Shown here: one piece after another, positions 17,084-56,038 of the stretch | How the letters are laid out: each line of letters starts with the position of its first letter | Numbering within the stretch: the stretch's first letter is position 1 | Source of the DNA: Bacteroidales bacterium | GTDB lineage: Bacteria; Bacteroidota; Bacteroidia; Bacteroidales; VadinHA17 | NCBI GenBank assembly: GCA_020201035.1 | Contig: JAIVHO010000031.1 | Location: 62,001 to 126,000, forward strand | Direction: 5' to 3' | DNA length: 64,000 nt | Made by a program: the position numbers and the translations under genes | Notes under the pieces: generated by a model | The model's input: the letters and a program-made list of their open reading frames with translations, nothing else | What the model was told of the DNA's origin: nothing | Database searches by the model: none

Positions 17084-17626
17084 TCAGGGAATCCATGCTG
17101 GCTGCTCCACTCCTGATTCAGCGGCCACCTTTCTGGACAGAACAAACAGATAATCAGACAGTCTGTTCAGATACTTCACTATCTGCCAGTCTACGTCTGC
17201 CTCCCCGGAGAGCCTTATAACAGCTCTCTCAGCTCGTCGTGCTACTGCTCTGGCGACATGTATGGCTGCAATATTGACACTTCCACCCGGCAGAATGAAA
17301 GAGTTCAATGGTTTAAGTAAAGATTCCATGGCATCAATCTCACTCTCCATTTCAGCTATATCTGAGTCTGAAGGGGCAGTCATCCTGCTCTTGCTTGCAC
17401 CCGGCCCTACAGCCAGCAGAGCAGCACAATGCATAAGTCTGGACTGAATACCAACCAGGAAATTCATTCGTTCTCTGTTCTCCGGCATGTATGCCACAAC
17501 TCCAACCAGTGCAATCACCTCGTCAACATTTCCGTAAGCCTCAATTCTGACTGAGCTCTTGGGTAACCGGGCGCCTCCCGCCAGGGAGGTGGTTCCATCA
17601 TCTCCTGTTTTGGTATATATCTTCAT
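17084..17626 (-). CDS. cob(I)yrinic acid a,c-diamide adenosyltransferase (PduO type)
   Basis: MKIYTKTGDDGTTSLAGGARLPKSS...YGNVDEVIALVG; FILPGG; HVARAVARRAER. Confidence 0.92.
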   Translation of the reverse strand: MKIYTKTGDDGTTSLAGGARLPKSSVRIEAYGNVDEVIALVGVVAYMPENRERMNFLVGIQSRLMHCAALLAVGPGASKSRMTAPSDSDIAEMESEIDAMESLLKPLNSFILPGGSVNIAAIHVARAVARRAERAVIRLSGEADVDWQIVKYLNRLSDYLFVLSRKVAAESGVEQPAWIP

Positions 17627-17628
17627 AT

Positions 17629-18315
17629 TTAATCCTTTACAACGTCACTGGATACTTCACCGTCCATTAGTCTTATTATCCTGCGGGCATTCTGAGCAAT
17701 ATCCTCCTCATGGGTTACAAGAATAACGGTATTTCCAAGGTTGTGAATCTCCCTGAGAAGGTTCATTATATCCACAGATGTCTTACTGTCAAGATTTCCG
17801 GTAGGTTCATCAGCCAGGATAATAGATGGCTTATTCACCATGGCACGTGCTATTGCAACCCTCTGCCTCTGTCCGCCCGAAAGCTCATTCGGTTTATGGG
17901 TCATCCTGTCAGCAAGTCCCACCTGATCAAGCATATCAGTTGCAATCTTTACCCTTTCTATTTTTGGAATTCCGGCATAAACAAGAGGAAGGGTAACATT
18001 CTCAAGTGCCGTGTACCTCGGCAGTAGATTAAAAGTCTGGAAAATAAATCCGATCTCCTTATTCCGTATCTCGGCCAACCTGTTATCTTCCAGTTTGCTA
18101 ACATCAGTTCCATTAAGCCAGTATTCTCCTCTGGTGGGAGTATCAAGACAACCCAGAATATTCATCAGCGTTGATTTTCCGGAGCCTGAAGGCCCCATGA
18201 TCGCCAAATATTCATTTTGTTCTATATCGAGAGTAACAGACCTCAGTGCCTTTACAATCACTGAACCAATCTGGTAATGCTTCACAATCCCTTTAATCTC
18301 AATTATTTTACTCAT
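17629..18315 (-). CDS. ABC transporter ATP-binding protein (MacB/LolD-like)
   Basis: Walker [24 protein letters not shown] signature, [12 protein letters not shown] Walker B. Confidence 0.92.
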
Positions 18316-18389: not shown

Positions 18390-19343
18390 TCAATATCTTA
18401 TTAAAAAATTCTGCTTCGGGATGCCCTTTCTGAAAAACAGAATACCATACCTGAGAAGATCAATTGAAACGGAAACCCTCCTGTCACTTATCAGCCTGTT
18501 CCATTCATCCTCTAAATCCGGTGACAAATGAATATTTTCAATAATGACAATTGTTTCATCTGATAATACACCGGCAAGCATATCAAAACAGTAGAACAAT
18601 TTATTCCGGCAGCTGTTCGCAACTACCAGTATCAGTCCGGCTTTCCCAGCTTCAGAACAAATATTACCCGGGCACCATTCCTTATCAATCAGCCTCATCT
18701 CGATATTTCCTGTGACAACTGCGTTGGCTTGATAACTGGTTAGTGCATCTGCCGATCCTGCTCTTTCTGGTTCTTCTTCAGATATTCCTTCGGCTGCTGT
18801 CCCTTCTCCCAATGTTTCTTCTCCTGATGATATTACGCCTGATGTTTCTTCTTCCGGAGTTTCTTTTCCTGCGAATACTTCTCCTGGTGTTCCTTCGCTG
18901 GATATCCCCTCTTCCGATTCCGTTCTCCTATTAACAATTATCACTTTTGAATCGGGAGCCTCCGCCGCCATGGCAAGTGTGGCCATAGAGAGTACGCCTC
19001 CTATCTGCAAAACCGGTAACCCGGTTACCTTTCTGGCCAGAAGGGCCAATAGCCTGCAGTACTTGTCACAGCCATAAATCCGTTCCACCCATCCCCTCCC
19101 TTTTTCAGGTATATTGTCAATCTTCAATGAACCATCCCGTAACAGGTTTGCCCCCTGCACTTGCTGAATATGCAGCATCCTGCGCTTTAAATCAACTACT
19201 GTTTTGACAACCGCAGGGTCTGGTTTATTCAAAAATATTTCTGAAAAAAGGTTAAAAACGAACGGACTGTGGATACCATGTCCCTTCCTGTGACGGGCCA
19301 GTAAAAAATATTTCAGACGGCGTGAAGTAAAAAAGAGATTCAT
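18390..19343 (-). CDS. class I SAM methyltransferase-like protein with internal acidic pentapeptide-repeat insert
   Basis: RHRKGHGIHSPFVFNLF N-terminus and VLQIGGVLSMATLAMA / VIIVNRR Rossmann-like core interrupted by EGISSEGTPGEVFAGKETPE... Confidence 0.65.
   Translation of the reverse strand: MNLFFTSRRLKYFLLARHRKGHGIHSPFVFNLFSEIFLNKPDPAVVKTVVDLKRRMLHIQQVQGANLLRDGSLKIDNIPEKGRGWVERIYGCDKYCRLLALLARKVTGLPVLQIGGVLSMATLAMAAEAPDSKVIIVNRRTESEEGISSEGTPGEVFAGKETPEEETSGVISSGEETLGEGTAAEGISEEEPERAGSADALTSYQANAVVTGNIEMRLIDKEWCPGNICSEAGKAGLILVVANSCRNKLFYCFDMLAGVLSDETIVIIENIHLSPDLEDEWNRLISDRRVSVSIDLLRYGILFFRKGIPKQNFLIRY
18781..18915. repeat. 15-bp degenerate minisatellite, about 9 units, in frame in the methyltransferase-like gene
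   Basis: Units on + strand: gatattccttcggct / gctgtcccttctccc / aatgtttcttctcct / gatgatattacgcct / gatgtttcttcttcc / ggagtttcttttcct / gcgaatacttctcct / ggtgttccttcgctg / gatatcccctcttcc. Confidence 0.85.
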
Positions 19344-19399
19344 CAGGCAATTTTAAAATTGTCAGGAAAGCCAAAATTAGCTATTTTTCGGTTTCCTAA

Positions 19400-21523
19400 A
19401 TGAAGATAATTTCCCTGATGTCAGATTACCTTAAAACAGAAATCACATACCTTGAAGGTGTAGGACCCAAAAGAGCCCTGATGCTGGAGAAAGAGATCGG
19501 AATAGCAAACTTTTACGACCTTCTTTACTATTTTCCATATAAATATGTTGATCGTACAAAATTCTATACTATTTCCGAGCTTGAAACCAGCCTGCCATAT
19601 GTGCAGGTAAAGGGTGAGATCGAAGGTTTCTATTTTGAGGGGGGCGGACGTAATAAAAGACTGGCAGCAAATTTCACAGATGAAACGGGTTCACTTAAAC
19701 TAATCTGGTTCAAAGGCATAAAATGGATAACCAACCGTTATAAACCAGGAATTAAGTATATACTTTTCGGCAAACCGGCACTCTTCAACGGCCTGATTAA
19801 TATAATTCACCCTGAACTGGAAGAGGAAGGGGGCAGTGAACGGAAAATTACGGCCGGACTCCAGGCTCACTACAGCACAACAGAAAAGCTTAAAGACAGC
19901 TTTATTACATCCCGCACCATTGGCAAGATGGTGAGTAACGTGTTTACAAGGCTCCCAGGCACCATACAGGAGACACTTCCCAGCTGGATGATCAGTAAAT
20001 ATAACCTTAAGGAACTGCACGATGCGCTGCTCACCATTCACTTCCCTGATAGCAACAGGGAACTGGAGAGAGCCATTTACCGGCTTAAATTCGAGGAACT
20101 GTTTATTATTCAACTCTCGCTCCTGAGATATAAGGCAACCCGGAATCTCTACCTTAAGGGTCACATCTTTTCAGTGGTTGGTGATAAGTTCAATACCTTT
20201 TACAGAAAATGCCTGCCCTTTGAGCTTACGGAAGCACAAAAGAGGGTTATAAGGGAGATTCGCCGCGATTTGGGATCGGGACGACAGATGAACAGGCTGC
20301 TGCAGGGCGATGTTGGCAGCGGTAAAACGATGGTTGCACTGATGAGTATGCTGCTGGCAGCTGATAATGGCTTTCAGTCATGCCTGATGGCCCCGACAGA
20401 AATTCTCGCCAGCCAGCATTATGCAACCATCAGGGAATTCACCGAAGAGACGGGAACAGTAGTAAGACTGCTTACCGGCTCTACCAAAAAAAAGGAGAGA
20501 AATGAGATAGCAACACTGCTGGCTGACGGTACAATTGAAATATTGATAGGAACTCATGCTCTTATCGAGGAGACAGTAATATTCAAAAGACTCGGCCTGG
20601 CAGTTATTGATGAACAGCACCGCTTTGGGGTTGCACAAAGGGCAACACTCTGGAATAAGGAGAATTCCCCTCCCCATGTGCTTGTTATGACAGCAACACC
20701 GATTCCCCGTACTCTGGCTATGACTCTCTATGGTGATCTGGATGTCTCTGTTATAGATGAATTACCTCCGGGAAGAAAAAGTATTAAAACACTCCACTTT
20801 ACTGATTCTGAAAGATTGCGCGTATTCGGGTTTATGAAGAAACAGATTGGAGCAGGCCGGCAGGTCTATATCGTTTACCCCCTGATAAGGGAGTCTGAGA
20901 AGATGGACTATAAAAATCTTGAAGAGGGAGTTGAGGCAATAACCCGGGCTTTTCCTCCCCCTCTTTACAGCATAAGTGTGGTACACGGCCAGATGAGCTC
21001 CGCTGAAAAGGAGTCCTCAATGAGACTTTTCAAAAAGGGGATTGCAAAGATTCTGATTGCAACCACTGTTATTGAAGTTGGTGTGGATATCAGGAATGCA
21101 ACAGTAATGATGATCGAGAGTGCCGAACGTTTTGGGCTCTCACAACTGCACCAGCTGAGAGGCAGGGTCGGAAGAGGAGCTGACCAGTCATACTGCATTC
21201 TTATGAGTGCCGATAAACTGTCAAATGAAGCACGGAAAAGGATTGATATTATGGTTGCAACAGGCGACGGATTTGAAATTGCGGAAGCAGACCTTCAACT
21301 CAGAGGGCCTGGTGACCTTGAAGGTACCCAGCAAAGTGGTACAGGTTTCGATCTCAGAATAGCAAATCTCGGTCGCGACGGACAACTGCTTGAATATGTA
21401 AGGAGAGTTGCTGAAGAGATTACTGACAGGGATCCTGACCTGCAAAAACCTGAAAACAGTATCTTACGAAAACTTCTTGCAAAGGACAAGATAAGTGAGG
21501 TTGACTGGGGAAGGATAAGCTGA
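19400..21523 (+). CDS. recG: ATP-dependent DNA helicase RecG
   Basis: EGVGPKRALMLEKEIG wedge, GDVGSGKTMVA, DEQHRFGVAQR, QLRGRVGRGADQSYC. Confidence 0.95.
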   Translation: MKIISLMSDYLKTEITYLEGVGPKRALMLEKEIGIANFYDLLYYFPYKYVDRTKFYTISELETSLPYVQVKGEIEGFYFEGGGRNKRLAANFTDETGSLKLIWFKGIKWITNRYKPGIKYILFGKPALFNGLINIIHPELEEEGGSERKITAGLQAHYSTTEKLKDSFITSRTIGKMVSNVFTRLPGTIQETLPSWMISKYNLKELHDALLTIHFPDSNRELERAIYRLKFEELFIIQLSLLRYKATRNLYLKGHIFSVVGDKFNTFYRKCLPFELTEAQKRVIREIRRDLGSGRQMNRLLQGDVGSGKTMVALMSMLLAADNGFQSCLMAPTEILASQHYATIREFTEETGTVVRLLTGSTKKKERNEIATLLADGTIEILIGTHALIEETVIFKRLGLAVIDEQHRFGVAQRATLWNKENSPPHVLVMTATPIPRTLAMTLYGDLDVSVIDELPPGRKSIKTLHFTDSERLRVFGFMKKQIGAGRQVYIVYPLIRESEKMDYKNLEEGVEAITRAFPPPLYSISVVHGQMSSAEKESSMRLFKKGIAKILIATTVIEVGVDIRNATVMMIESAERFGLSQLHQLRGRVGRGADQSYCILMSADKLSNEARKRIDIMVATGDGFEIAEADLQLRGPGDLEGTQQSGTGFDLRIANLGRDGQLLEYVRRVAEEITDRDPDLQKPENSILRKLLAKDKISEVDWGRIS

Positions 21524-55974: not shown

Positions 55975-56038
55975 AGTTACCTAATGCCACCTTGCAGAGT
56001 TATGTAATGCTACCTTGCAGAGTTATGTAATGCTACTA
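55975..56038. repeat. 23-bp tandem repeat, about 2.8 copies
   Basis: agttacctaatgccaccttgcag | agttatgtaatgctaccttgcag | agttatgtaatgctacta. Confidence 0.85.

Follow-up and report, generated by a model that had tools for sequence, protein, structure and literature searches.

Bacterial genes are known to carry repeat DNA in frame. Rickettsia palindromic elements (RPEs) are palindromes of about 150 bp which are found in dozens of copies, inserted in frame in genes for unrelated proteins (PMC10969869). In Porphyromonas gingivalis, the minisatellite-MITE BrickBuilt consists of a 23-nt unit with inverted-repeat ends and is present in 19 copies, always intergenic (PMC4596501). Tandem repeats within bacterial genes (PMC2996958) and low-complexity regions of proteins (PMC6821194) have also been described.

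The locus reported here lies in a 64,000-nucleotide stretch of a Bacteroidales genome; this whole stretch is called the window. The locus resembles the RPEs in that repeat DNA, probably dispersed, is translated in frame within a protein gene and apparently tolerated, and it resembles BrickBuilt as a probably dispersed minisatellite of a Bacteroidota genome. As in intragenic repeats and low-complexity regions, an in-frame repeat with a unit that is a multiple of three makes up a low-complexity stretch. Unlike the RPEs, it is a tandem array of 15-bp units that lacks inverted-repeat ends and has a single related locus, which is non-coding. From BrickBuilt it is set apart by its 15-bp unit, its coding position and, again, the absence of such ends. 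In contrast to the described intragenic repeats, it stands in place of a cofactor-binding loop, in an enzyme that has degenerated, and the same genome contains a non-coding relative of it. The host protein is linked to PF13578 and O-methyltransferase family 3 by the PF13578 matches of its orthologues and by their profile match to solved enzymes, whereas in the window protein itself motif I, the acidic residue of strand 2 and the metal-ligand motif are missing and 54 aa are inserted. What is combined here is a coding and a non-coding member of one probable repeat family, the coding one residing in a lost cofactor site.

The host gene and its private insert

The gene (18390..19343, minus strand; 317 aa) was recognised from its open frame, homology and synteny as a methyltransferase-like gene, a degenerate orthologue of O-methyltransferase-like Bacteroidota proteins about 262 aa long, and phmmer comparison with the homologues gave E values down to 8e-38 for the window protein. 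A LolD-like ABC transporter ATPase gene (17629..18315, minus strand; PF00005) begins 74 bp past its stop codon as a conserved neighbour, and the cobalamin adenosyltransferase gene (17084..17626, minus strand; PF01923) is conserved in synteny. Also conserved is a divergent helicase gene (19400..21523, plus strand) which, from its sequence and established knowledge, we take to be recG. The arrangement recG, methyltransferase gene, lolD, cobA was found in 72 of 95 homologous loci as in the window, and recG and lolD together accompanied the methyltransferase gene in 79 of the 95. By this conserved neighbourhood the window gene is an orthologue by position.

The orthologues matched PF13578 (Methyltransf_24) with E values from 1.5e-7 to 6e-17, and their profile matched solved O-methyltransferases of family 3 (COMT-like), for example PDB 7cvu and 3dul. 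No Pfam or NCBIfam model, PF13578 included, matched the window protein. The designation methyltransferase-like, given in an earlier note made from the DNA letters, therefore holds by descent and not by a match of the protein itself. No intact paralogue was found in its own genome, where the sole other match was a generic O-methyltransferase domain (model positions 93-221).

Homologues were collected from 60 relatives and then from 117 genomes of the same family (other genera), most of which contained one, and 94 of them were aligned with the window protein (n = 95). From the second strand to the DGNH motif, the window protein measures 110 aa and 83 of the 94 others measure 55 aa; in the remaining homologues, two truncated ones excepted, this segment ranges from 52 to 58 aa, the latter being the longest outside the window. 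The relatives carry exactly five residues, EGCPE or EGCPA, at the insert site. The 54-aa insert TESEEGISS...EEPER (18762..18923, minus strand), which contains the 15-bp array, is accordingly private to the window lineage among the 95 homologues. The comparison of orthologue lengths across species proposed in the earlier note placed the insert in the window protein only, and the same repeat was looked for in distant relatives among the 94 homologues and was not found. Searches of the 60 relatives for the 15-bp repeat gave no convincing match, only matches of 23-38 bp. Close relatives were also sought in a wider contig collection, with only three matches, all from unrelated Bacillota, and in viral contigs, where none was found.

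The array was detected by Tandem Repeats Finder (TRF) as 8.3 copies of a 15-bp unit with 62% matches and 3% indels (18773..18896, minus strand), the commonest codon unit being approximately TCA GGA GAA GAA ACA. The pentapeptide series EGISS/EGTPG/EVFAG/KETPE/EETSG/VISSG/EETLG/EGTAA/EGISE reads just as originally proposed, on the minus strand, in frame and directly after VIIVNRR. Its span of 18781-18915 needs slight correction, since the part inserted relative to the orthologues extends a little beyond it on both sides. Self-identity of the array was 0.55-0.58 at lags of 15, 30, 45 and 60 bp. After shuffling of the insert's own codons, the lag-15 identity was 0.41 +/- 0.035 and the observed value was reached in none of 20000 shuffles; when all in-frame lags between 6 and 45 were allowed, a fraction of 0.0016 of the shuffles reached it. 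Biased codon content does not account for the periodicity, which, together with the low proportion of matches, shows that the array is real but old and degenerate.

The insert contains 17 Glu among its 54 residues and only two basic residues. With a unit that is a multiple of three, stop-free and rich in Glu, Gly and Ser in frame, the loop would be acidic and probably unfolded; such disorder is predicted from composition, the single-sequence AlphaFold model of the window protein, with a pLDDT of 35, being uninformative on this point.

Loss of cofactor and metal motifs

Conserved columns, defined as those kept in at least 80% of the homologues, numbered 68, and 34 of them were replaced in the window protein. 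The replacements were concentrated in the cofactor-binding core (33 of 48 positions) as opposed to the N- and C-terminal motifs (1 of 20; Fisher p 1.6e-6). Core retention was 0.31, the lowest value in any other homologue being 0.71, while 19 of the 20 conserved end positions were kept, in the N-terminal RHRKGHGIHSPFV and the C-terminal FFRK...IRY motifs.

Motif I (ExGTSxGIS), in which the E and both G are present in 100% and the T in 98% of the relatives, is absent from the window protein, which reads QIGGVLSMA against ELGTSLGIS. FIDGNH (FxDGNH) is changed to LVVANS and DDI to ENI, and the metal/catalytic Asp is gone. The glutamate of TIEG at the end of strand 2 is likewise missing, the strand reading VIIVNRR and then passing into the insert; alignment programs can match the TIEG glutamate to a Glu within the inserted part, though not at the strand end. 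The counterparts of these motifs in the solved enzymes, as seen in the profile alignment, are LEYDP, FIDAD and DNV. In COMT-like enzymes, the TIEG, motif I, FIDGNH and DDI positions are the SAM-ribose and metal ligands. The insert lies at the site of the SAM-ribose-binding glutamate of the relatives, in a protein without the other cofactor and metal motifs, and catalysis would have been lost. The earlier placing of the loop in a fold core is right in so far as the insert follows just past the second strand of a Rossmann-fold methyltransferase-like protein, but the core is not a working one.

The reading we favour, with a probability of about 0.6, is that a minisatellite-derived acidic loop is tolerated in a selected pseudoenzyme which descended from an O-methyltransferase and is the only orthologue in its genome. 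The locus is known from one draft genome of 76 contigs. Its history may be outlined as follows: The methyltransferase orthologue would have become a pseudoenzyme, its SAM- and metal-binding core being lost and its ends, promoter box and frame kept. Before or after this loss, a 15-bp minisatellite would have arrived or expanded in the loop past the second strand, at the site of the SAM-ribose glutamate, and the acidic loop would have been tolerated by the non-catalytic protein. The loss of the cofactor site may have made the loop permissive, and the loop might have taken on a scaffold role or some other function. The locus may then serve as a case of repeat DNA becoming protein in which the state before is well defined, as the insert is missing from the site in 94 relatives. 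The locus would also link one repeat family across the coding and non-coding DNA of a single genome, and it would be a fairly clean bacterial example of a pseudoenzyme built on the class I methyltransferase fold, with conserved ends and the cofactor site gone.

A related non-coding array and the origin of the repeat

A search of the own genome with the array DNA gave one other match (E 3.8e-7; reverse search E 7.8e-8). This is a related 15-bp array of about 190 bp (L068:2495-2686, corresponding to G000:C36:160994-161185; reverse-search match at C36:160989-161189), which is intergenic and lies upstream of a uvrD/pcrA-like gene. Its units match at 72-88%, against 62% in the gene array, and it also displays higher-order periods of 30 and 75 bp. 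Read in the frame of the gene array it gives KETSGVETSG*, with stops, and is therefore not coding. Both arrays contain the 17-mer AAGAAACATCAGGCGTA, and two unit types follow each other in the same order in both. In a null where the 15 columns of the unit were permuted, with period and composition kept, 1 of 3000 permutations reached the alignment score and none of them reached the exact-match length. The shared 17-mer and two-unit order make it probable that the insert is a member of a small minisatellite family dispersed in the genome. The two arrays, both degenerate and purine-rich, are by their sequences probably related, and the repeat family is probably not confined to the methyltransferase gene. 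Terminal inverted repeats were limited to one 10-nt pair of 90% identity near the window array, with none at the array upstream of uvrD. The own genome is not unusual in arrays, its density of 5.3 per 100 kb (in 400 kb) being within the range of 2 to 10 in relatives (0.8 Mb).

A somewhat unlikely alternative is local slippage on the gene's own EGCPE codons (15 nt), in which case the likeness to the uvrD array would stem from purine-rich convergence or from copying in the reverse direction. The five residues that relatives carry at the site are similar to units such as EGTPG, and the gene array, being the more degenerate of the two, may be the older one. Slippage at the site accounts poorly for the 17-mer and two-unit order common to the other locus, which exceed the null that preserved period and composition.

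We noticed that both related arrays adjoin DNA-repair helicase genes (recG and uvrD), which is perhaps a coincidence. The uvrD-like gene also has a 17-bp array, AAAGCTAAGGGCAGAGG, which starts at its 3' end (L068:5083-5192).

Repeat loops in another genus, and selection or decay

Other in-frame repeats were found in the orthologue of genus g10. In genome G009, a 15-bp unit encoding REDAG/REDSG occurs in 8 copies ahead of the first core strand (L184:2049-2168), and a 33-bp unit encoding PVPDPWLPPAG in 6.5 copies near the C-terminus (L184:2552-2764); the orthologue in G125 has a repeat of about 78 bp. The full-length g10 orthologues range from 278 to 447 aa and their catalytic motifs are intact. 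These repeats are unrelated to the window array and are located in other loops of the protein, so repeat expansion in the recG-linked methyltransferase-like protein is recurrent, and, given the intact motifs, a loop can be tolerated without the cofactor site being lost. A second locus for the REDAG array was sought in its own genome and not found. TRF detected 7 arrays in 92.6 kb of methyltransferase genes and 0 in 194.7 kb of recG, lolD and cobA, a preference which is only suggestive, as 5 of the 7 arrays come from one genus. It is doubtful that the recG-linked protein is a preferred minisatellite acceptor, in which lineages independently grew different loops and in which, here, the cofactor site was replaced by a length-tunable acidic scaffold for a non-catalytic job.

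Recurrence in another genus also bears on an adaptive loop, according to which the protein has taken on a new use and the loop made by the repeat is under selection as an element for binding or charge, its length perhaps tunable between strains. The strong acidity of the insert and an array that is in frame and stop-free, against the stops of the related non-coding array, agree with such a role. We nevertheless consider it unlikely: the insert is common to no relative, its units are as degenerate as expected for an old, tolerated array, and the unrelated compositions of the g10 repeats (REDAG, PVPDPWLPPAG) argue against one function.

Whether the gene is selected or decaying was assessed from its divergence, frame and upstream region. 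The terminal branch of the window protein is 2.59, ten times the median of 0.26. The neighbouring lolD is normally conserved, and the methyltransferase residual of the window genome is the lowest of 82 genomes. No stop is present in frame, although about 9 would be expected had the gene drifted neutrally to its present identity of 31%, and 0 of 200 simulations remained stop-free. A putative Bacteroidota-type promoter box, TAATTTTG (TAnnTTTG; 19372..19379, minus strand), lies at -36 from the ATG and is kept in most homologues: it was found upstream of 68 of 88, mostly at -28 to -37, against a background of 0.07 per 110 bp. Codon composition of the insert-bearing gene is coding-like, and the gene is presumably expressed. 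A decaying pseudogene, with the insert as noise in a still unbroken frame, would account for the very long branch and for the loss of half of the conserved columns. This reading, which includes recent neutrality after a long selected divergence, is disfavoured and improbable in view of the uneven retention (19 of 20 positions at the ends against 15 of 48 in the core), the missing stops, the retained promoter box and the coding-like codons. The promoter box, the open frame and the preservation of both ends fit a pseudoenzyme under selection better than a dead gene.

An assembly or binning artefact is highly improbable, for although the genome is a draft of many contigs, repeats are prone to assembly errors (PMC6868369) and the rho gene of the same contig is divided between two frames near tandem repeats, the flanks of the window gene are conserved and syntenic, its reading frame is intact and its array is degenerate, unlike a collapsed perfect repeat.

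The split rho gene (L137:13896-15950; G000:C25, about 353896-355950) may be an assembly error or a real frameshift. One frame encodes Rho_N and the start of its low-complexity region, the other a Gln-rich region of repeats followed by the body of the ATPase, and the frame changes near tandem arrays of 12 and 24 bp. In L038 (G074:C83), the methyltransferase and the LolD-like ATPase are joined in a single 471-aa open frame by two undetermined residues (XX), probably an assembly gap. Outside the predicted long ORFs, the window also contains a 23-bp tandem repeat (55975-56036; 2.7 copies, 92% matches). A long array with units of 8, 16 and 24 bp (AATAACAG...), likewise outside long ORFs, is located at G000:C25:55002-55327 (L122:15002-15327).
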